Positions 973-28,350 of a stretch of DNA of 35,304 nucleotides are shown piece by piece. Location: positions 1-35,304 of the IMG/VR virus record IMGVR_UViG_3300035701_000143, one strand, 5' to 3'. Under the pieces are notes generated by a model that made no database searches, was not told the DNA's origin, and saw only the letters and a program-made list of their open reading frames with translations. Origin of the DNA: a virus. Position 1 is the stretch's first letter. Each line of letters begins with the position of its first letter. A program made the translations under genes and the position numbers.

Positions 973-1023
973 AGAGGCGCAGTGTCGCGGTATGACAAAT
1001 AACTGAAATCATTAATTAAATAA

Positions 1024-1052
1024 TTGGTACGGTATTTGCGATATATTATCCT
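1024..1052 (+). promoter_or_regulatory. Putative promoter before the structured RNA
   Basis: TTGGTA at 1024-1029 and TATCCT at 1047-1052 are separated by exactly 17 nt. The -10 box fits the TAnnnT pattern common in actinobacteria. The segment is the most A+T-rich of the neighbourhood (ATTAATTAAATAATTGG just upstream). A start about 7 nt after the -10 would fall at 1058-1060, next to the first hairpin of the structured region. Based on sequence only. Confidence 0.45.
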
Positions 1053-1055
1053 AAC

Positions 1056-2278: not shown

Positions 2279-2494
2279 TTCAAGTCACACCCCCCTTCAG
2301 CTCGTGTGGCCCAACGGCTCGATGAGCGCCGGTTCGCTTTCAAGTCACACCCCATCTTTGCTTTCAAGTCACACCCCATCTCGCTTTCAAGTCACACCCC
2401 ATCTTTGCTTTCAAGTCACACCCCATCTCGCTTTCAAGTCACACCCCATCTTTGCTTTCAAGTCACACCCCATCTCGCTTTCAAGTCACACCCC
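2279..2494. repeat. Compound tandem repeat: 8 copies of TTCAAGTCACACCCC
   Basis: The 15-mer TTCAAGTCACACCCC occurs at 2279, 2339, 2363, 2386, 2410, 2433, 2457 and 2480. After an isolated first copy, the other seven lie in tandem with starts spaced 24, 23, 24, 23, 24, 23 nt. The linkers alternate between ATCTTTGC and ATCTCGC, so the true unit is 47 bp. Copies in the array are identical, which suggests recent amplification or strong constraint. The 47-bp period is not a multiple of three and every frame gives only low-complexity peptide, so it is not a gene. It lies between an HTH protein gene and terL, so protein-binding sites (packaging, operator or origin iterons) are the natural guess. Confidence 0.9.
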
Positions 2495-2502
2495 CGATAT
2501 AG

Positions 2503-2548
2503 TCTTTAAGTCTTTGACTTTGACTCTAGGTTTTGACTTCGTCAAAAC
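2503..2548. repeat. Degenerate repeats and inverted repeat GTTTTGAC-TTC-GTCAAAAC
   Basis: Just after the array, CTTTAAGTC (2504-2512) looks like a decayed copy of the array's CTTTCAAGTC. TTTGACT occurs three times (2513, 2519, 2532). The last one is part of a perfect 8-bp inverted repeat with a 3-nt centre at 2530-2548. This A+T-rich segment stands out from the GC-rich flanks and may be an operator or part of a packaging or origin site. Confidence 0.6.
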
Positions 2549-2575
2549 ACCGCGCCGGAGCCGGCGCGGTTCTCA
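2549..2575. terminator. Perfect 10-bp GC hairpin, terminator-like
   Basis: ACCGCGCCGG (2549-2558) and CCGGCGCGGT (2561-2570) pair perfectly around AG. The rightward transcript continues TTCTC, a weak U-tract. The leftward reading gives GTGTTTTG after the stem. It could end transcription of the small upstream genes before terL, in either direction, or be a structural part of the packaging region. No clear polyU, so confidence is moderate. Confidence 0.45.
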
Positions 2576-2656: not shown

Positions 2657-2662
2657 GTGCAC

Positions 2663-4132
2663 ATGATGCACACCTCGCCACAGCTGCCGGCAGCAGCAAT
2701 GGACCCCGCGACGGACTCCGACGACATACTCAGGAGGGCCGCGCGGGTTGACCCCAACGCTTTCATGGGGTACGTGTTCCGGGATGAGGAGCGCGGCCTC
2801 CCGATCATTCAGGCCCCGCACCATACCCGGTGGCAAGACCTCGTCAGCGACAACGATCGCGTCATCATCTGGTCGGCCGTGGAGCACGGCAAGAGCTTCC
2901 AGCTCACCGTCGGGCGCGTGCTGTGGGAGCTGGGCAGCGACTCCTCGATGCGTATTGCCATCGTCTCCAACACGTATGAGCAGTCCCAGAAGTTCCTGCG
3001 CGTGATCGCCAAGTACATCGAGTCCAGCCCGGAACTGCACGCCGTGTTCCCCGACCTGGCGCCGGGTGACGTGTGGTCCGGTGGGCAGCTTATCGTGAAG
3101 CGCGGCACCACATCGAAGGACCCCAGTGTGCAGTCGTTCGGCGTTCACGGCGCCGTGCTCGGCTCGCGTATCGACCGGCTCGTGTTGGACGACATTCTTG
3201 ACTATGAGAACTGCCGCACCGAGGCATCCCGCAAGGAGCTGGACGACTGGTACCACGCTTCGCTGGCGGGCCGTCTCACGGCCCGCGCCAAGGTGTGGGT
3301 GATCGGGACATCATGGCACCCCGACGACCTGTTGCACAAGCTGGCGGCGCAGGGCGGGTGGAGGATTATCAGCACGCCGTCGCTCACCGAGTCCGGGGAG
3401 CCGGCCTGGCCCGAGCGTTGGCCGCTCGCGCGAATCGAGGCGAAGCGCCTGGAGCTTGGCCCGCTGGAGTTCGCGCGGCAGATGATGTGCCAGGCGCGCG
3501 ACGACGCCGACTCCCGCTTCAGGCGCGAGTGGATCGACCGCTGCCTCGAGCTTGGTCGTGGACTCATGTTGTCACCCGGCCTCGACATTATTCCTCCGGG
3601 GTACAGGACATACACCGGTGTCGACCTTGCGGTGTCACGCAAGACGGCGGCCGATAAAACGTGTCTGTTCACCCTTGGTATCGGGGCCAAGCAGCAGCGG
3701 CAGGTGCTCAACATCGAGACGGGGCGCTGGGCCGGCCCGGAGATTGTCGCCCGCGTTGCGGACACCCACCGCCGGTACGGGTCTATTATATACGTTGAGG
3801 GCAACGCGGCGCAGGATTTCATCCGGCAGTTCACCACTGACCAGACCGCTGTGCCGGTAAAGTCGTTCGTCACGTCCGCCAAGAACAAGTGGAACCCGGA
3901 GTTTGGGGTGGAGAGCATTGCCGCTGAGATGGCGGCCGGCAAGTGGACCATTCCGAGTGGTGATGGCAAGAACCTGCACCCGGAGGTTGCCGCGTGGGTG
4001 ACTGAGATGCTATACTACGACCCGGCTGGCCACACAGGTGACCGCCTGATGGCAAGCTGGATCGCGCGGGAGGCCGCACGGCTGGGAACGCGCGTTGTCT
4101 CAAGTGGGCGTCTTGACCTGATGGCGAGGTGA
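2663..4132 (+). CDS. terL: Terminase large subunit
   Basis: ATP-driven DNA packaging motor and nuclease. Counting from GTG 2657 (two codons upstream), the N-terminal ATPase has an atypical P-loop WSAVEHGKS (72-80), a Walker B hydrophobic strand RLVLDDI (174-180) and a VIGTSWHPDD motif III (215-224). The C-terminal RNase H-fold nuclease has GVDLAV (Asp323), YVEGNAAQD (Glu381) and GDRLMASW (Asp462), so all acidic positions are present. At about 490 residues the length is normal. A weak AGGT at 2645-2648 would serve GTG 2657; the promoter geometry favours ATG 2663. The Walker A lacks the usual GxxxxGK glycines, as in several Terminase_6-type enzymes. Function is confident. Confidence 0.95.
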   Translation: MMHTSPQLPAAAMDPATDSDDILRRAARVDPNAFMGYVFRDEERGLPIIQAPHHTRWQDLVSDNDRVIIWSAVEHGKSFQLTVGRVLWELGSDSSMRIAIVSNTYEQSQKFLRVIAKYIESSPELHAVFPDLAPGDVWSGGQLIVKRGTTSKDPSVQSFGVHGAVLGSRIDRLVLDDILDYENCRTEASRKELDDWYHASLAGRLTARAKVWVIGTSWHPDDLLHKLAAQGGWRIISTPSLTESGEPAWPERWPLARIEAKRLELGPLEFARQMMCQARDDADSRFRREWIDRCLELGRGLMLSPGLDIIPPGYRTYTGVDLAVSRKTAADKTCLFTLGIGAKQQRQVLNIETGRWAGPEIVARVADTHRRYGSIIYVEGNAAQDFIRQFTTDQTAVPVKSFVTSAKNKWNPEFGVESIAAEMAAGKWTIPSGDGKNLHPEVAAWVTEMLYYDPAGHTGDRLMASWIAREAARLGTRVVSSGRLDLMAR

Positions 4133-4135
4133 CCA

Positions 4136-4501
4136 ATGGAAATGAGCGAGCAAGAACTGAAGCAGGCCGTCGAGCATGATGAGGCCAACAAGGCGGCGCA
4201 GGCCGGATCGCCGGATGCTGGCAAGAAGGCTGTGCTGTCGGTGAAGGAGCTGGTGGAGTACTGCGACAAGCAGACCGCCATTCTGGCAAAGCAACTGTCG
4301 CTTGACCTACTCGGCACGGCGGCGAGGATCGCCGCTGTCGCGCACGAGAATGTGCAGAGCCGCAATGTCGGCGGGGTGGACAAGATCGCGGCATCCGCCG
4401 GCGCGTTCATCAGGCTGGCCGAGCAGCTCGACATCATCGGCGACAAGGCGTACGTCCGCGCGTACGGCGTCAGTTCCGGTGAGGGCGGGGGCGCCAAGTG
4501 A
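4136..4501 (+). CDS. Small helical protein between terminase and portal
   Basis: A 121-residue, almost wholly alpha-helical protein (MSEQELKQAVEHDEANKA, LSVKELVEYCDKQTAILAKQ, GGVDKIAASAGAFIRLAEQL) with a Gly-rich tail. It starts 3 nt after the terL stop and its TGA overlaps the portal GTG, so the three are translationally linked. Position and helical make-up would allow a packaging accessory or small terminase, but no DNA-binding motif is seen. I do not recognise the family. Confidence 0.8.
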   Translation: MEMSEQELKQAVEHDEANKAAQAGSPDAGKKAVLSVKELVEYCDKQTAILAKQLSLDLLGTAARIAAVAHENVQSRNVGGVDKIAASAGAFIRLAEQLDIIGDKAYVRAYGVSSGEGGGAK

Positions 4502-6249
4502 GCAGCGGAACCCCACACCATCCTGATCGCGTTCGGTCGATGCTCAATGCGTTGGTCGCCAAGATCAAGGGGGGCAACGCCCCCCGCCAGATCGGCGGGC
4601 AGGCCGGCGTGGCGGACCTCGAGCGCATCATGCGCCTCGGCATGTCCCCGCGACAGCAACGCCTGAACCATCTCTATGCCTGGTACCGGTGCGGGCATTA
4701 CGAGGCCCGCAAGTTCGATTGGGATGGCAAAGAGGTGCTCGACCCCATAGAGCATGAGGTTGTCGCTACCAGCGGCTTCCTGCCCCCCGGTTTCGAGTCC
4801 GTCGCCAACCTGCCGCTTCGCTTCCGTCGGCCGGCCGCGCCCTACGGGCTGGTTAAGGTCATCGTCGATCGCTTCACCGCCATGCTGTTCAGCGAGCGTC
4901 AGCACCCTTATGTTTACGTCGACGACGACCCCGACACCAACGATTACATCGGTGCCATGATCCTTGCCGGGCGGCTGTGGCCGGCCATGCTGGTCGCGCG
5001 GCAGTACGGCGGCTCCACGGGCAGCGTGTGCATCGGGTTCCAGTTCATCGACGGCAAGCCGGTCATCGACGTGCATGATCCGCGATGGGTGACCCCTGAC
5101 TTCAAGGACCGCACGCACCATGAGCTTCGCGGGATTGAGATCCGCTATATGTATCCGCAGGACGAGCGCGATACGGGCACTGGGAAGTACGTGACCAACT
5201 GGTATTGGTACCGCCGAGTGATCGACGAGAAGAGTGACACGCTGTACGCCCCGGTTCTGGTCGGCAACGGCGAGGAGCCGGAGTGGTCGGCGGAGCGGAA
5301 GATCGACCACGGCTTCGGCTTCTGCCCCGCTGTGTGGGTCCAGAATCTCCCGGTCATAGACGACATCGACGGCGACCCGGACTGCCAGGGCGTGTTCGAC
5401 ATGATCGAGACCATGGACTCGCTGCTGTCGCAGGCCAATCGTGGCATCGTTGCGAACTGTGATCCGACCGTGGTTATATCGTCCGATGCGGAGATGGGCG
5501 AGATCAAGAAGGGCAGCGACAACGCCCTCAAGTTGCCGAACGGCTCGGCGACCTACATGGAGATCAGCGGCTCCGGCCCGAAGAGCGCGCTAGATCTGAA
5601 TGAGAGTCTGCGCAAGATGGTGCTGGAGGTGGCGCAGTGCGTCCTCGAGCCGCCGAACATGAGTGTGCGCAGCGCCACCGAGATTGAGCGCGTGTACTCC
5701 ACCATGCTCGCCAAGGCCGACATGCTGCGCGAGCAGTACGGCCAACGAGCCATCCTGCCGTTGTGCGAGCAGATGCTCGCCGCCGCGCGCATGCTGGGCA
5801 AGAACACGGAGACTGACGCGGAGGGCAACATAGTCCGGCAGGTGCTCACGCTACCCAAGCGTGTGACGCGGGATGCAGAGGGGACGCCCAAGTCCGAGGA
5901 TCGCGTGATCGGCGAGGGCACGGTCATCGGTCTGCGCTGGCCGCGCTACTTCCAGTACGCGCTTCCGGACATCGAGCTGGCGGCGCGCGCGGCGGGCACG
6001 GCGATGACCGGCAACATGATCGACCTTGAGAGCGCCATCCGGTTTGTCGCCGAGTACTTTGGGATCGCAGATGTGGGCGCGCTGACGACCAAGATGCTGG
6101 AGCAGCGCGAGTCGCAGGCTGCTCAGATGGGCGGTGGGTTGAAGGAACGGTTCGGCGGCGAGGAACCAATCCTGGGTGAGGAAGAAGAGACAGAGGAAAC
6201 GGCGCCCCCCGAAGAGGCTGAGTGGCACCCGGCGGCGCAAGACAGATAG
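4498..6249 (+). CDS. Portal protein
   Basis: A 583-residue protein with the layout of SPP1/HK97-type portals: an N-terminal basic region, an alpha/beta core (APYGLVKVIVDRFTAMLF, then a D-rich DDDPDTNDYIG and VDVHDPRWV-like strands), the helical stem region around FDMIETMDSLLSQANRG, and a long helical crown. It ends with a very acidic tail (EEEETEETAPPEE). It forms the dodecameric ring at the capsid vertex through which DNA passes and to which terminase docks. The GTG start overlaps the previous stop (GTGA). Position directly after terL supports the call. Confidence 0.88.
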   Translation: MSSGTPHHPDRVRSMLNALVAKIKGGNAPRQIGGQAGVADLERIMRLGMSPRQQRLNHLYAWYRCGHYEARKFDWDGKEVLDPIEHEVVATSGFLPPGFESVANLPLRFRRPAAPYGLVKVIVDRFTAMLFSERQHPYVYVDDDPDTNDYIGAMILAGRLWPAMLVARQYGGSTGSVCIGFQFIDGKPVIDVHDPRWVTPDFKDRTHHELRGIEIRYMYPQDERDTGTGKYVTNWYWYRRVIDEKSDTLYAPVLVGNGEEPEWSAERKIDHGFGFCPAVWVQNLPVIDDIDGDPDCQGVFDMIETMDSLLSQANRGIVANCDPTVVISSDAEMGEIKKGSDNALKLPNGSATYMEISGSGPKSALDLNESLRKMVLEVAQCVLEPPNMSVRSATEIERVYSTMLAKADMLREQYGQRAILPLCEQMLAAARMLGKNTETDAEGNIVRQVLTLPKRVTRDAEGTPKSEDRVIGEGTVIGLRWPRYFQYALPDIELAARAAGTAMTGNMIDLESAIRFVAEYFGIADVGALTTKMLEQRESQAAQMGGGLKERFGGEEPILGEEEETEETAPPEEAEWHPAAQDR

Positions 6250-6264
6250 TACGAGAGGTGAACC

Positions 6265-6771
6265 ATGTCAGACTACCGTCCTCAATTCCTGGCAATAGCT
6301 CGCGTGGCGTATGAGGCCGTGCGCGCCTACTGCGCGACCGCAGGCGAGCACCACATGCGCGAATGGGATGTGGCCCCGCCTTGGGTCCATGACGATTGGC
6401 ACGACCGCGTGTCCGACGCCATCCAGCCCGGCGCGACGCCGGGCCTCGTGCACTCGCGCTGGCGCGCGCGCGCGGAGGCTGCTGGCTGGAAGCGCGGCGA
6501 CATACACGCCCCGGATCGCTTGGAGCACCCGGCGCTCGTGGACTATCCCGAGCTGGCGCACAACGCGCGCGTGGAGTGGGAGGTTACCCTGGTGGTGGCA
6601 CGCACGCTCGCCGGCGAGATGCTCCCCGGCGTGCTGGACGCGCCGGCCAAGGCGCCTATCATCGATAGTGCGCAGGTGTCACAGGCCGATTCGGCGGAGC
6701 AGTCCGTTGCGCAGCTGGAGCCGTGCGATAATGAGGACAAGGGGAAACGCCACAAGGGGCGCAAGGGGTAG
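6265..6771 (+). CDS. RyR-domain protein
   Basis: A 168-residue protein. Residues ~8-115 match the pattern of the bacterial/phage single RyR (ryanodine receptor repeat) domain: YEAVRAYCATAG, W-x-APPW, a helix LVHSRWRARAEAAGWKRGD, then HPALVDYPELAHNARVEWE and a final helix VTLVVARTLAG. In eukaryotes such repeats decorate calcium channels; in phages the role is unknown, with ligand binding proposed. The C-terminus is charged (EDKGKRHKGRKG), which may bind nucleic acid. It lies between portal and other accessory genes, 15 nt after the portal stop, with ATG 6265 preceded by GAGAGGTG. Confidence 0.75.
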   Translation: MSDYRPQFLAIARVAYEAVRAYCATAGEHHMREWDVAPPWVHDDWHDRVSDAIQPGATPGLVHSRWRARAEAAGWKRGDIHAPDRLEHPALVDYPELAHNARVEWEVTLVVARTLAGEMLPGVLDAPAKAPIIDSAQVSQADSAEQSVAQLEPCDNEDKGKRHKGRKG

Positions 6772-6774
6772 CTT

Positions 6775-7242
6775 GTGGTCATCGCAATCGACTTTGACGG
6801 GGTGGTGGTGGACGCGCAGGCGTCGCATGACCTGTCCTCCCCGCTTACCCTGAAGGCCGGCGCCCGCGAGGGCCTGGAGTCGCTGAGGCGCGCCGGTCAC
6901 GTCCTGTTGCTGTACTCGGCGAGGGCCAATCTGGCGCAGCGTGAAGACCCGCAGCTGGACCCGCTGGTCCGTGCCGGCAAGCGCCGCGTGCGCTCGCAGA
7001 CCGCTGGCGAGCAGCGCGTCGCGGCTGAGGCCCGCTACCGGGCCATGCTGGACTTCATCGGCAGGGAGCTGCCCGGAGTGTTCGACGCGGTTGACGATGG
7101 CCGTCAAGGCAAGCCAATCGTGGATATATTCATTGATGACCATGCTGTCCGGCTCGGGCCGGGCGTGCTCGGCGTCGGCTGGCGTGGTATAACGGAGATG
7201 TATGGGCAGCCCGTCTACGGCGGGCGCAGAAGGAGCGCGTGA
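6775..7242 (+). CDS. HAD-like hydrolase domain protein
   Basis: A 155-residue single-domain protein. Motif I is IAIDFDGVVVD (Asp6, Asp8), motif II is the strand VLLLYSAR (Ser48), and a C-terminal KPIVDIFIDDHAVR carries Lys113 and the paired Asp121-Asp122 of motifs III/IV. All catalytic positions of a phosphatase-type HAD fold are therefore present, with a minimal cap. Possible substrates are nucleotides or phosphorylated ends, as with small phage 5'-nucleotidase-like or polynucleotide phosphatase proteins; none can be chosen from sequence. Start is GTG 6775 with AAGGGG 6 nt upstream. Its TGA overlaps the next ATG. Confidence 0.8.
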   Translation: MVIAIDFDGVVVDAQASHDLSSPLTLKAGAREGLESLRRAGHVLLLYSARANLAQREDPQLDPLVRAGKRRVRSQTAGEQRVAAEARYRAMLDFIGRELPGVFDAVDDGRQGKPIVDIFIDDHAVRLGPGVLGVGWRGITEMYGQPVYGGRRRSA

Positions 7243-8829: not shown

Positions 8830-9203
8830 CCGTCGACGCCCGCAAGCTCAAGAAGGTCGGCAACTCCAAGGAGCAGCGCGCGCTGATGAAGCAGCGCGCT
8901 GAGGCTGAGGACGCCGGCGCGACGCTGCGCAACGGCGGGTTCGGTGGGCTGTCGCCGTCGCTCGTCCTCGGCGTCATGCGCCGCGACGGTTTCGCGTGCA
9001 AGCGGTGCGGCGGGCAGGAGCAGCTCGGCGTTCACCACAAGGGCGGCATCGTCGACTCGGAGCGCATGTCCGCGCTCGGCCACAGGTCGGTGTTGGAGAA
9101 CCTGGTGACGCTGTGCGCGGAGTGCCACGGCGACATCCATGACGACGCGCGTGAGCGCGGGGTGGACTCGTCTCAGATCACGCCCGAGGGCGACAAGGAG
9201 TAG
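8826..9203 (+). CDS. HNH endonuclease
   Basis: A 125-residue protein with a complete HNH module: Cys58-x2-Cys61 (ACKRCGG), His70-His71 (LGVHHKGG), Asn92 (LENLVTLC), Cys97-x2-Cys100 and His101/His105 (CAECHGDIH). The N-terminus is lysine-rich and helical. Free-standing HNH nucleases near terminase genes can assist packaging, and others are homing endonucleases; this one lies well downstream of terL, within the accessory cluster. It overlaps the previous gene by 4 nt and so looks like a settled member of the operon. Confidence 0.85.
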   Translation: MTVDARKLKKVGNSKEQRALMKQRAEAEDAGATLRNGGFGGLSPSLVLGVMRRDGFACKRCGGQEQLGVHHKGGIVDSERMSALGHRSVLENLVTLCAECHGDIHDDARERGVDSSQITPEGDKE

Positions 9204-9206
9204 GTC

Positions 9207-10136
9207 ATGAGCAAGAGAAGAATCGCGGACATCTTGATGCAGGCGCGGCAAGCCAGGCAGGCGCGGGAGCGTGCGCCGATGACGAAATCAACTCCACTGC
9301 GCGTGCAGGTCCGCAAGGCCGACCAAAGGCGTGGCCGATTACGAGAGGAGGCATACGCCAAGGCGCAAAACTCGCATCCAGATGACGTTACTGAGGAGGA
9401 GTTCCGCAAGGCCGTCGAGCACGCGCGGGTGATCGGCGACGATGACAGCCTTCGCAAGTTCGATGATGCTGCGAATGAGAAGGCTGGCGTCGAGCGCTAT
9501 ACAGTCGCCGGGCGCGGCGGCGAGCCGACGCGTGTGTCCATCCCCGAGCGCGAATCCCCCGAGGACTCGCCGGACATCATCGGCAGCACGCGCAGCGGCA
9601 AGGCCATCCGCGCCGACTTTGACCATGAGGATCATTCCGACTTCACACCGCAGGACCATGACGACGCGGATAGGGTGCACAATGAGGTGGTTCGATCGGC
9701 GCGCGATGCCGGCGACTTCGATACATTGCAGGAGCATGCGATCCTTGGAGCGATGCATGGCGAGCTGTCACGCGCGCAAAATTATTTGGATATGCCGGGC
9801 GTGAAGGATGCGGGCGACAATCGCATGCGTGGTCATCGTGACCGTCTTGCGGCGGTCAGGAGCAAGGGAACGCGTGGATCGCCGGAGGCGATGAAGGAGT
9901 ACAAGAACATGAAGGTGGGGTTCGATGAGGCGCATGCGCGTATGAGGGCCGTCAAGGGCGCCGACGTCGAGAAGCGCGTGTCCGCGCCGCCGGCCGCGCG
10001 GCTGAAGCGCGTCAAGGATGAGGCGAAGAAGGCCCCGAAGGAGCGCGCCGAGAAGTCCATGCAGGTTGGTCCACGCGGCGGCAAGCACTACATTGCGCCG
10101 AGTGGCAAGAAGGTGTACATTGGCAGTAAGGGGTAG
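9207..10136 (+). CDS. Hypothetical head-region protein with C-terminal RGG-HY tag
   Basis: A 309-residue, highly charged protein with no membrane segment. A middle section contains an Asp/His-rich motif (DFDHEDHSDFTPQDHDDADR, about 131-150) followed by helices (TLQEHAILGAMHGELSRAQN). The last 25 residues carry the shared tag VGPRGGKHYIAPSGKKVYIG, preceded by a Lys/Ala/Arg-rich linker. Similar Asp/His-rich segments are known to me from C-terminal regions of phage minor head proteins, but their function is undefined. It precedes the Mu F-like gene by 3 nt. A structural or cargo role in the head is inferred. Confidence 0.7.
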   Translation: MSKRRIADILMQARQARQARERAPMTKSTPLRVQVRKADQRRGRLREEAYAKAQNSHPDDVTEEEFRKAVEHARVIGDDDSLRKFDDAANEKAGVERYTVAGRGGEPTRVSIPERESPEDSPDIIGSTRSGKAIRADFDHEDHSDFTPQDHDDADRVHNEVVRSARDAGDFDTLQEHAILGAMHGELSRAQNYLDMPGVKDAGDNRMRGHRDRLAAVRSKGTRGSPEAMKEYKNMKVGFDEAHARMRAVKGADVEKRVSAPPAARLKRVKDEAKKAPKERAEKSMQVGPRGGKHYIAPSGKKVYIGSKG

Positions 10137-21780: not shown

Positions 21781-22440
21781 CTACTGTTGCGCGAGTCGCT
21801 GCGATATGACCTGCTCGGGCGTGAGGCCGGCGGCAACATGCCGGAAGTACGTTCTCTGCGGCAGATTGACGAGCACGAGCCATTCACGCAGCGGCTTCTC
21901 GATACCATTCACGGTCAGTATGCGCCAGGCGCCTGGCCGTTCCTTCGGCTTACGCTGATTATTGTTTTGCTCCTCGCTGGTCGCCCATCGGCAATTCTCG
22001 GGGCAGTAGTTCCCGTCGTTGTCAATCCTGTCAATGCTGTGATACTTGGATGGGCGGCGCCCCATATCGGCCAGGAAATTCTCGTATGTTTGCCAGCGCT
22101 CGCAGACCGAGATGCCACGAGCGCCGTAGTAGGGGTAGTTGCAGTGGTTGGGATTGTTGCACCTCGACAGCATGGCGGCCCAAGTGCGATACTCGGGAGT
22201 CTCTTTGCTGTTACTGGCTTCACCATGCCTTCGACTTGCGACGCCAAGATTGCGGCCAAGCTCTCGGCGAAGGCATCCGCAGGAGTTGGACTTGCCGAGG
22301 CGCAGCACGGAGCCGGTGATTGTTGCTTCGTTGCCGCAGTCGCAATGGCAGCGCCACGCGGCCTTGCCACCTATGGATGGTGCTTCGTCAACCACGGTGA
22401 GTCTTCCGAATCGTTTACAGCGCATGTCAATTGGCAGCAT
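21781..22440 (-). CDS. HNH homing endonuclease (leftward)
   Basis: The only leftward gene: 219 residues. N-terminal zinc-ribbon-like part with RFGRLTVV, WRCHCDCGN and NSCGC. Middle nuclease core with YRTWAAMLSRCNNPNH, YYGARGISVCERW and the HNH signature KYHSIDRIDNDGNYCPENCR. C-terminal DNA-binding helices (EKPLREWLVLVNLPQRTYFR). This is a well-known free-standing phage homing endonuclease type. GGGAGG 6-7 nt before the ATG at 22440 decides the start. It is oriented against all neighbours and is less GC-rich, sitting between sheath and tube, so it is most likely a mobile intruder. Its expression would need a leftward promoter that I do not see clearly. Confidence 0.88.
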   Translation of the reverse strand: MLPIDMRCKRFGRLTVVDEAPSIGGKAAWRCHCDCGNEATITGSVLRLGKSNSCGCLRRELGRNLGVASRRHGEASNSKETPEYRTWAAMLSRCNNPNHCNYPYYGARGISVCERWQTYENFLADMGRRPSKYHSIDRIDNDGNYCPENCRWATSEEQNNNQRKPKERPGAWRILTVNGIEKPLREWLVLVNLPQRTYFRHVAAGLTPEQVISQRLAQQ

Positions 22441-25499: not shown

Positions 25500-26666
25500 G
25501 TGTCAGACGCCAGTTCCTTCATCATCAGCGAGCTGACCGGCCCGGAGCACAAACTGAAGCTCGTGGGGCGCGCACTGCCGTATCGACCGCTGGAGTTCGA
25601 TGGGGAGATGCGCGCGGAGTTCACATACTATCCGGGGAACCCGCAGGCCACTGTGCAGATGATCGGCCCGAAGGAGGGCGAGACCACCATCAACGGCATG
25701 TGGAAGGATCGGTTCATGAAGTCCATGACCGAGGGGTTGATACCGCTGCCGGTGTTCAACCCGCCCGGCAAGGCGCTGTACGACGGGTCGCAGGTGCCGG
25801 ACGTGTTGACGCTGGTCAAGATCGTGGACGGCTTTCGCCGGCGCGGGCAGTTGCTCGAGGTGAATTGGGACGAGCTGACGCGCAGGGGAGTGATGCTCAA
25901 CTTCCGGCACAAGTGGCTGCGCCGGGAGGACGTGGAGTGGGAGATCAAGTTCGGCTGGGTGTCGCAGGACGAGGAGATACCGCCGGTCGGCTTCGGGTTC
26001 GGGTCGTCGCTGCTCGATTTCATCAACGAGCTGGTGAACGCGCTGAACGATCTGATCTCGCTGGTCAGCGACTTCATCGACGCGATCAAGTCGACCATCG
26101 CCGCGTTCCGCAGCATAGTGAACCTCATAAACAACATCGTGGACTCCATCACCGAGCTGGTGTCATCCATGGTCGACCTGGCCAAGCAGGCGGTGAACCT
26201 CGTGCTCGCGCCGATACAGATCGCGCGCCAGTTCGTCGCCGGGTACCAGGCCATCAAGGATACGTGTCTCGGATTATGGGATGTGATCGGCTCCTTCCCC
26301 GCCAGGGCCGCCGCCGCCGCAGGCCCAGAGATTGCCGGCACCGTGACGCAGTCGGAGGTGGTGGATGCAGAGCGCAGGCAGCAGGCCGCGCGCAAGGCCG
26401 CGCGCAAGCTGGCCGCGCTGGCGGCGCAGCGGGCGCAGGAGGTGGAGGCACAGACCACGGACAGCAACGACGTGGCGCGGGAGACGGTCCACCAGGGCCA
26501 GGACCTGCGAGCGATCTCGAACCTTTACTATGGCACGCCAGACGAGTGGAAGCGCCTGGCCACGTACAACAGGATTAAGACCAGCTCGCCGCCGGCAGGC
26601 TCGGTCATACTAATCCCCCGGCTGGTGCAGCCGAGGACATCGCTGAGGGTGACCACACGTGGCTGA
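25500..26666 (+). CDS. Baseplate hub protein with C-terminal LysM-like domain
   Basis: A 388-residue protein. The N-terminal ~150 residues are beta-rich (LTGPEHKLKLVGRALPYRPL, FTYYPGNPQATVQMIGPKEG). The middle is a long amphipathic helical stretch (LLDFINELVNALNDLISLVS, IDAIKSTIAAFRSIVNLINN). Then come an Ala/Arg-rich linker and a LysM-like end: VHQGQDLRAISNLYYGTPDE, WKRLATYN and SVILIPR. In phages such as Mu, P2 and many actinophages, a LysM-bearing hub lies right after the tape measure and binds peptidoglycan during tube penetration. Start is GTG 25500 with GAGGTG upstream. Confidence 0.78.
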   Translation: MSDASSFIISELTGPEHKLKLVGRALPYRPLEFDGEMRAEFTYYPGNPQATVQMIGPKEGETTINGMWKDRFMKSMTEGLIPLPVFNPPGKALYDGSQVPDVLTLVKIVDGFRRRGQLLEVNWDELTRRGVMLNFRHKWLRREDVEWEIKFGWVSQDEEIPPVGFGFGSSLLDFINELVNALNDLISLVSDFIDAIKSTIAAFRSIVNLINNIVDSITELVSSMVDLAKQAVNLVLAPIQIARQFVAGYQAIKDTCLGLWDVIGSFPARAAAAAGPEIAGTVTQSEVVDAERRQQAARKAARKLAALAAQRAQEVEAQTTDSNDVARETVHQGQDLRAISNLYYGTPDEWKRLATYNRIKTSSPPAGSVILIPRLVQPRTSLRVTTRG

Positions 26667-28350
26667 TTTCTCCGAGGGGCGCTTCGGCGGCGTTTACTAC
26701 CCGAGCATGGTCTGCAACCTGCAGATGCGCTTCGACGAGGGGCTGACCCCGCTCGGCACGCCACAGAGCACCGATGATCTGGCGAAGGCCGGCGGCGGGG
26801 CGCCCGCCGTGGTTCCCGACCCGATCATACTCGGCATAGGCAAGGATAACCTCACGCAGGTCATGGGCATCGTGCCGCGCTCGTGCACCGTCGAGTTGCC
26901 GGGGTACAGGCAGGCTGGCACGTTCGGCTGCGAGTTCGAGTTCCGCGACCTGCCGCTCGATCCGCGCGTCATCCGGGCCATGGCGGTGCAGATCCACCTT
27001 GACGTGGTAAGCGCGTCCGACTGGGCGCGGGGCGTGACCGGCGATATGTCCGAGGGCGGCAGGCGCTCCAGCATACTCACGCCGTCCGACGACAACCTGC
27101 TCATACGCGGCGTGGCCGACGAGATCAGCACATCGTGGAACGATCATGGTGCCGTGGTGCATGTCGAGGGGCGTGACCTGCGCGGCATACTGCTCGACGC
27201 GCGCGTGTCGGCCGACGGGGTGTCGAAGCTCAATACCATGCAGACGATCGGCATCGTGGTGCAGGACCTTCTCGCGCTGCACCCGCAGAGCGCGGGGTTC
27301 GAGGTTGCCGTATATCCCCCCGAGTGGCCGGGTGGTTTGGTGCCGATACTGGGCAACATCACCGAATACACCAGGGTCAACAAGGACGCGGCGACCGGGG
27401 CAAAGACGCAGCAGGGGCGAGAGGGCGACGGGGACAAGCTGTCGTTCTGGGATGTGATCACCAAGTTCTGCTTCCTGTGCGGCGCTGTGCCCTACTTTGT
27501 CGGCAAGCAGCTACGCATCAGGCCGGCGCGGTCGCTGTACGACGCCGCCGGCGCGGAGAAGCGCCCGTTCGACCCCACCTTCCCGTACCCGTTCAAGGGC
27601 GGGCAGAAGCGCGCCGTGTCCCCACCCGACGTGACGAACCCGGAGCAGTTCGGGTACCGGCGCATGGTGTTCGGCCGTGACGTGTTGGAGATGAAGCTGG
27701 AGCGCAAACTGGGCGGCGTCAAGACCCCGGTGGTGCGCTGCGTCAGTGTGGACACCTCCGCCAAGGTGCGAGGTGCGCAACGTCTCTTGGTCGCCGAGTA
27801 TCCGCTGCCGGGGACTGCCGGGCGAACGACCAACATCGGACCGTCTGGCGAGGCGCCCATGACTGAGGCGCTGAACATACCCGTGGCCGGCGTGTCCAGC
27901 CAGGCAAGGCTCGCGCAGATTGCCCAGGACATCTACGAGGAGATCGCACGGGGGGAGATGGGTGGCAACATTACGACCAAGAGCTTGTCGTCATTCGGCG
28001 GCAGCAACGAGGACGCGGACCTGCTACGCCTACGCCCCGGCGACCCCGTCGAGCTGCGGGTGTGGTCGGCCGGATTCGAGTCGTTCCCGCCGCCGGTGTC
28101 CGAGCTGACCAATGATGCAAGCCGCTCATTCGAGGAGGCTGTGCAGGCGGTCGCCGATCGCGTAGGTGACGCCGCGTTGGCGCGCGTTTTGGTGGCCGCC
28201 AATCGCGGGCAGATATCACAGTTGCAGCAGACGTTCCGCGCGCACACCGTCCGGTTCTCGTGGGACAAGGATAGCGGCATAGGTGTCGAGTTCGACTTCC
28301 AGAACTACATCGAATCACGCAATGGCGCGGCGGCCGGCGGGGGTGGGTGA
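26659..28350 (+). CDS. Baseplate hub, gpD-like
   Basis: A 563-residue protein with features of the P2 gpD / Mu gp44 / T4 gp27 hub family: beta-barrel segments (CTVELPGYRQAGTFGCEFEF, DNLLIRGVADEISTSWNDHG, VHVEGRDLRGILLDARVS), a helix-rich FWDVITKFCFLCGAVPYF region, and the later LRIRPARSLYD and RLRPGDPVELRVWS strands. It forms the trimeric collar onto which the spike is mounted. GTG 26659 overlaps the previous stop by 8 nt. An FGGVYYPSMVCNLQ N-terminus and a Gly-rich C-terminus flank it. At 563 residues it is longer than P2 gpD. Confidence 0.8.
   Translation: MADFSEGRFGGVYYPSMVCNLQMRFDEGLTPLGTPQSTDDLAKAGGGAPAVVPDPIILGIGKDNLTQVMGIVPRSCTVELPGYRQAGTFGCEFEFRDLPLDPRVIRAMAVQIHLDVVSASDWARGVTGDMSEGGRRSSILTPSDDNLLIRGVADEISTSWNDHGAVVHVEGRDLRGILLDARVSADGVSKLNTMQTIGIVVQDLLALHPQSAGFEVAVYPPEWPGGLVPILGNITEYTRVNKDAATGAKTQQGREGDGDKLSFWDVITKFCFLCGAVPYFVGKQLRIRPARSLYDAAGAEKRPFDPTFPYPFKGGQKRAVSPPDVTNPEQFGYRRMVFGRDVLEMKLERKLGGVKTPVVRCVSVDTSAKVRGAQRLLVAEYPLPGTAGRTTNIGPSGEAPMTEALNIPVAGVSSQARLAQIAQDIYEEIARGEMGGNITTKSLSSFGGSNEDADLLRLRPGDPVELRVWSAGFESFPPPVSELTNDASRSFEEAVQAVADRVGDAALARVLVAANRGQISQLQQTFRAHTVRFSWDKDSGIGVEFDFQNYIESRNGAAAGGGG

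Follow-up and report, generated by a model that had tools for sequence, protein, structure and literature searches.

Positions 2279–2570 of the virus DNA analysed here (the window; 35,304 nucleotides, IMG/VR record IMGVR_UViG_3300035701_000143) probably constitute an origin-like element bound by a phage initiator. We propose, from sequence comparison, that it is the late-region (oriR-type) twin of an origin that lies within the linker of an initiator gene (oriL-type). The architecture of the element, its homology to an element inside an initiator-like gene on a second contig (L017) and the recurrence of such pairs in two related phages (G009 and G025) are established at the sequence level. The transition of tailed phages from circle-to-circle replication to the concatemers packaged by terminase is poorly understood. 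The presence of an initiator-gene origin and a late twin, with iterons particular to each phage, in three members of an uncultivated family with contractile tails suggests a recurrent mechanism.

The gap before terL holds iterons, AT-rich DNA and two hairpins

Eight exact copies of TTCAAGTCACACCCC, starting at 2279, 2339, 2363, 2386, 2410, 2433, 2457 and 2480, lie in the 401-bp gap between an ORF encoding a helix-turn-helix (HTH) protein and the large terminase gene, terL (Table 1). Their spacings are 60, 24, 23, 24, 23, 24 and 23 nt. The array reported in a preliminary description of this DNA, seven cores at alternating distances of 24 and 23 nt plus one outlier 60 nt upstream, is thereby confirmed. 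TRF recovered the 47-bp unit in 3.4 copies with 100% match (2334–2494). When up to three mismatches to TTCAAGTCACACCCC were allowed, the window contained nine matches (0.77 expected), a number reached in none of 100 shuffles. The gap (2256–2656) has a G+C content of 54%. Since 47 bp is not divisible by 3, the array is read differently in each frame, and the gap is best taken as noncoding.

Table 1. Positions and strand of the element's parts and of the flanking genes in the window
Feature	Positions	Strand	Remarks
HTH (excisionase-like) ORF, 139 aa	1836–2255	+	phrog_66 E 1.9e-4; TIGR01764 E 5.5e-4; HTH_17 E 0.006 (Pfam and NCBIfam matches below curated cut-offs)
Outlying iteron TTCAAGTCACACCCC	2279–2293	+	Exact; lies 60 nt 5' of the cluster between unrelated flanks
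Cluster of seven iterons	2339–2494	+	24/23-nt alternation, giving a 47-bp higher-order unit
Segment identical to L017 4679–4730, 52 bp	2452–2503	+	Two iterons, spacer, CGATATAGT
AT-rich stretch, possible unwinding element	2495–2529	+	Low G+C
Hairpin 1, GTTTTGAC-TTC-GTCAAAAC	2530–2548	+	Perfect stem
Hairpin 2, ACCGCGCCG-GAGC-CGGCGCGGT	2549–2570	+	Perfect stem, abuts hairpin 1 without a gap
terL, large terminase	2657–4132	+	phrog_38 E 1e-67

The array is only the left half of the element, and the right half (2495–2570) had been missed in the preliminary description. Directly 3' of the last iteron, CGATATAGT leads into AT-rich DNA, which is followed by two abutting perfect hairpins. The G+C content is 35% across 2495–2548, and positions 2480–2539 are tied for the second-lowest 60-bp value in the 35-kb window (0.38 versus a mean of 0.64). 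As single-stranded DNA, the region 2495–2576 folds 6.5 sd better than shuffled sequences (z -6.5). The two hairpins are the sole abutting pair in the window (stems of at least 8, gap of at most 1), and first-order Markov simulations, 300 in all, produced no such pair. Folding gives stacked hairpins in each of the six elements compared.

BLAST with the array as query gave no relevant match among phages or plasmids, and the window contained no match to Rfam. Tandem copies of AGTCACACCCC in bacterial genomes were rejected as relatives of the array. They form unrelated sets (small contigs of Sphingomonadaceae, a Maricaulis element, dispersed repeats of Prevotellaceae/Bacteroidaceae and coding repeats), which we judge to be convergent. 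The small Sphingomonadaceae contigs L054, L056, L057, L060, L073 and L076 carry two TGTGACTCCTAGGAGTCACACCCC repeats with a 24-bp period, possibly plasmid iterons. Prevotellaceae MAGs contain a dispersed repeat family, present on many contigs, in which GTGTGAGTCACACCCC recurs at intervals of about 24 bp (L055, L061, L063–L066, L068–L070, L072, L075, L077, L078 and L080).

Elsewhere in the window, a noncoding region of about 530 bp (843–1375) contains the 60-mer with the lowest G+C content in the window (995–1054, 23%) as well as the words AATAGGTAACA and ATAAAGGTAACA, and may be an early promoter/operator or another cis element. This region has no Rfam match, and its part from 1055 to 1375 folds no better than shuffled sequences. 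Further, the segment 13300–14220 contains two adjacent, tandemly duplicated genes, with 67% identity at the DNA level over 483 bp.

A counterpart of the element lies within an initiator-like gene

An exact 15-mer scan of IMG/VR (2.9 million contigs) returned 11 stretches, and only L017 (contig IMGVR_UViG_3300035701_000218, 27,988 bp) has more than one copy. Positions 4679–4778 of L017 align to 2452–2553 of the window with 85.6% identity over 104 columns (E ~2e-26). The 52 identical base pairs within this alignment cover two iterons, the spacer and GATATAGT, whereas the next 78 alignment columns are 68% identical, which points to unequal constraint. Both arms of hairpin 1 have changed in L017 (GTCTTTGAC-TTC-GTCAAAGAC) with pairing kept, and the counterpart of hairpin 2 (ACCGCCG...CGGCGGT) likewise retains its pairing.

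The L017 element is located in the linker of a winged-helix initiator-like protein (516-aa ORF, 4003–5553), and a DnaB-like helicase gene follows directly downstream (5563–6930, 455 aa, phrog_19 E 1e-40). The two L017 iterons lie 23 nt apart and do not share a reading frame: the first encodes AFKSHP and the second LSSHTP. Those in the initiator gene of G025 (see below), 28 nt apart, also fall in different frames. Therefore, the repeat is conserved as DNA and not as peptide, with selection acting on the DNA. In the AlphaFold model of the L017 initiator (four homologues), an N-terminal winged-helix-like domain is joined to a helical C-terminal domain by a disordered linker (residues 145–306) that holds the element. 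As modelled, this domain layout is that of an O-type initiator. The L017 protein has no Pfam or PHROG assignment, and the initiator family lacks a curated replication annotation. One family member matches HTH_36 (E 6e-4), and a fold search with the initiator model yielded weak, generic winged helices alone (E of at least 0.03). L017 also encodes a recombination set of RecA-like, SbcC/D-like and gp32-like proteins. In another part of L017 (2024–2066), an operator-like 43-bp inverted repeat (88%; gcgcgctatgcgcaatgtgcgtataatgcacattgcgcatagcgc) lies upstream of a small HTH_17-like gene.

Homologues of the L017-type initiator and helicase are encoded by TerL relatives of the window (G006, G009, G011, G013 and G014), and the module is found in further contigs, including G023 and G025. 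AT-rich DNA and/or two to three strong hairpins occur at or just before the gene for the initiator C-terminal domain in G013, G018, G021 and G023. Two of these sites, L130 (G018, 8950–9174) and L136 (G023, 9040–9105), combine AT-rich DNA with two or three strong hairpins immediately 5' of that gene and are putative origins; the N-terminal domain of the initiator is missing there. The ORF for the DnaB-like helicase in L141/L142 (G025, G013) contains an apparent intein-like insertion after GDGK/GGGK (...CLAKGTPVLMYDGT...THNS).

Two relatives pair an initiator-gene copy with a late copy

In G009, a copy in the initiator gene (9853–9945) and a late copy (25570–25662) share 94% identity. The initiator-gene copy comprises the AT-rich stretch and two hairpins, with degenerate iterons (AATCAAACGT, AATCAAACAT). 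The late copy lies in a noncoding gap among the head genes with three exact AATCAAGTGT iterons (25501, 25553 and 25573), one of them an outlier 52 nt upstream, as in the window. The initiator gene of G025 (26213–24573, minus strand) carries two AATCAAAGTGGACTACATA iterons together with AT-rich DNA and hairpins (element at about 25573–25733). Its late copy (97477–97640) matches at 85% over 165 bp, has two exact AATCAAAGTGGACTACATA iterons and is situated in a gap without coding sequence, some 2.5 kb beyond terL. The place of the late copy thus differs from that in the window, where it is found upstream of terL, and the iteron sequences vary between the phages around a common core, WWTCAA(A)GT. 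The sample for pairing is small and amounts to three cases, one of which (window/L017) is split over two contigs. No second copy was detectable in the initiator-bearing genomes G006, G013, G014 and G023, which are whole or nearly whole.

These pairs strengthen one of the options in the preliminary description, iterons of an origin: the same succession of iterons, AT-rich stretch and hairpins is found in the L017 initiator-like gene beside a helicase gene, and two relatives carry it twice. The best reading of the sequences is that the window array represents a late copy with expanded iterons.

The late copy could instead be a non-functional remnant, that is, part of an initiator gene copied by recombination, with repeats later expanded by slippage. 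The 47-bp units are identical, so that the expansion is recent, and one frame of the window still resembles the L017 peptide AFKSHPISLSSHTPDIV. However, the lone iteron 60 nt 5' of the cluster is intact between unrelated flanks, and the hairpins have been kept through paired changes. In addition, the late iterons of G009 show greater regularity than their counterparts in the initiator gene, and three lineages that differ in iteron sequence all show the pairing. We regard a remnant as very improbable.

The late copies of the window, G009 and G025 (three of three) are co-oriented with terL or the late genes. This would also suit an operator array, through which a transcription factor, either the HTH protein or the initiator in a regulatory role, controls terL and the late genes. 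The array is intergenic and upstream of the late operon, and the HTH gene adjoins it. This earlier proposal agrees with the location and orientation of the array but leaves the conserved AT-rich stretch, the paired hairpins and the copy in the initiator gene unexplained. Further, no sigma-70-like promoter was found, and the HTH protein is absent from L017, G009 and G025. The operator array is a weak rival that we consider unlikely.

Multiplied iterons might also serve as a decoy that titrates the initiator of a competing phage by origin mimicry. Plasmid-borne fragments of the lambda origin do inhibit phage replication (PMC3349717). However, the same initiator family is present in the TerL relatives of the window, and the simplest reading is therefore that the sites are the phage's own. 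G009 and G025, moreover, hold both copies in one genome. We consider a decoy extremely unlikely.

Dispersed repeats in G004, G007, G008, G019 and G021 represent gene fragments, low-complexity DNA, short segments that flank small genes or terminal redundancy, and are not origin-like. A 214-bp segment of L024/G004 occurs twice, 5' of terL and within a late gene (4028–4241 and 21974–22187, 99% identity), and is a recent duplication of a gene fragment.

A different gene is the candidate for the small terminase

Because it lies 5' of terL, the array had been suggested to be a pac/cosB-like packaging element bound by the small terminase (TerS), with the HTH protein in that role. Tandem sites at fixed spacing do resemble TerS sites. 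However, the element resides within the initiator gene beside the helicase gene in L017, G009 and G025, far from terL, and no iteron-like array was found upstream of terL in other relatives, where the preliminary description had recommended looking for one. The excisionase-like HTH protein has no relatives in IMG/VR, and none in L017, G009, G025 or the other phages of the family. Another gene, whose product has an N-terminal HTH-like region, is conserved in many relatives, at distances from a few hundred bp to about 6 kb on the 5' side of terL (homologues include those in G002, G004, G006, G009, G019 and G021). Annotated in no library, it is by its position the TerS candidate of the family. 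A packaging site at the array is thus a very doubtful reading, and the assignment of the HTH protein as TerS is not upheld.

The TerS candidate also bears on the relation of the two contigs, as its L017 homologue (26318–27367; 39% identity to that of G004, E 1e-42) is near the right end of L017. L017 has no TerL, and the window, a 35-kb fragment, is without its own initiator, which would be encoded outside it. By tetranucleotide signature, L017 and the window are each other's best match (r 0.83) within the set of contigs compared. Together, the right-end family gene and this match suggest that L017 is probably the early half, and the window the late half, of the same phage type. The ends of the two contigs do not overlap, and one and the same genome is not implied. 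Since the window has no initiator of its own, we infer initiator binding from a different contig (L017).

Proposed role of the late copy

In the origin reading, the initiator, encoded outside the 35-kb fragment, would bind the iterons by its winged-helix domain, open the AT-rich stretch and load the phage DnaB-like helicase. Once filled, the late-region array could either fire as a second origin or stall an incoming fork. A stall at this site might lead to recombination-dependent synthesis of concatemers for packaging, as has been proposed for oriR of Bacillus phage SPP1. The RecA-like, SbcC/D-like and gp32-like proteins of L017 would suit such a mode.

More tentatively, the late copy may be a programmed replication-fork barrier, occupied by up to eight initiator molecules, that turns theta replication into the recombination-dependent formation of concatemers. 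It might be widespread in uncultivated contractile-tailed phages, with the size of the array tuning the switch. We put this forward as a conjecture more doubtful than probable. The elements of the window, G009 and G025 are compact objects for testing a replication switch. They also provide a search rule for origins in metagenomic phages: DNA of an initiator linker that recurs in a noncoding gap of the late region.

Comparison with known replication origins

Origins of the RSF1010 type (oriV) consist of iterons, an AT-rich region and ssi hairpins for a primase. The elements described here resemble them in the succession from iterons through an AT-rich part to paired hairpins. The likeness is one of part order, and RSF1010 is a plasmid.

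The origin of lambda lies inside gene O, where iterons and then an AT-rich stretch occupy the linker between the DNA-binding and the helicase-recruiting parts (PMC3349717). The L017 iterons and AT-rich stretch are placed similarly, in the initiator linker of the L017 model. The window element, in contrast, is noncoding and apart from any initiator gene, and its 47-bp period shifts the reading frame. A late-region twin of the lambda origin is not described in PMC3349717.

SPP1 has oriL in gene 38 and oriR in a noncoding late region; both contain direct repeats and an AT-rich region, and both are bound by the initiator gp38 (G38P) (PMC6316719, PMC3485210). That replication begins in theta mode at oriL and that a fork stalled at gp38-bound oriR triggers concatemer formation is a proposed model only (PMC3485210, PMC6316719). 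The present phages differ from SPP1 in several respects. No helicase-loader gene lies between the initiator and helicase genes of L017, whose ORFs are about 10 bp apart, although a loader may be encoded elsewhere. They are also set apart from SPP1 by the pair of abutting hairpins 3' of the AT-rich stretch, by the eight iterons of the window array with their higher-order period of 47 bp, and by a contractile tail (tail sheath). The twins are separated by 15.7 kb in G009 and about 72 kb in G025, compared with about 12–13 kb in SPP1. The likeness to SPP1, judged on its published layout, comprises an origin with direct repeats and an AT-rich region inside the initiator gene (L017, G009 and G025), a DnaB-family helicase gene beside that gene (L017) and a second copy in a noncoding late gap (the window relative to L017, G009 and G025).
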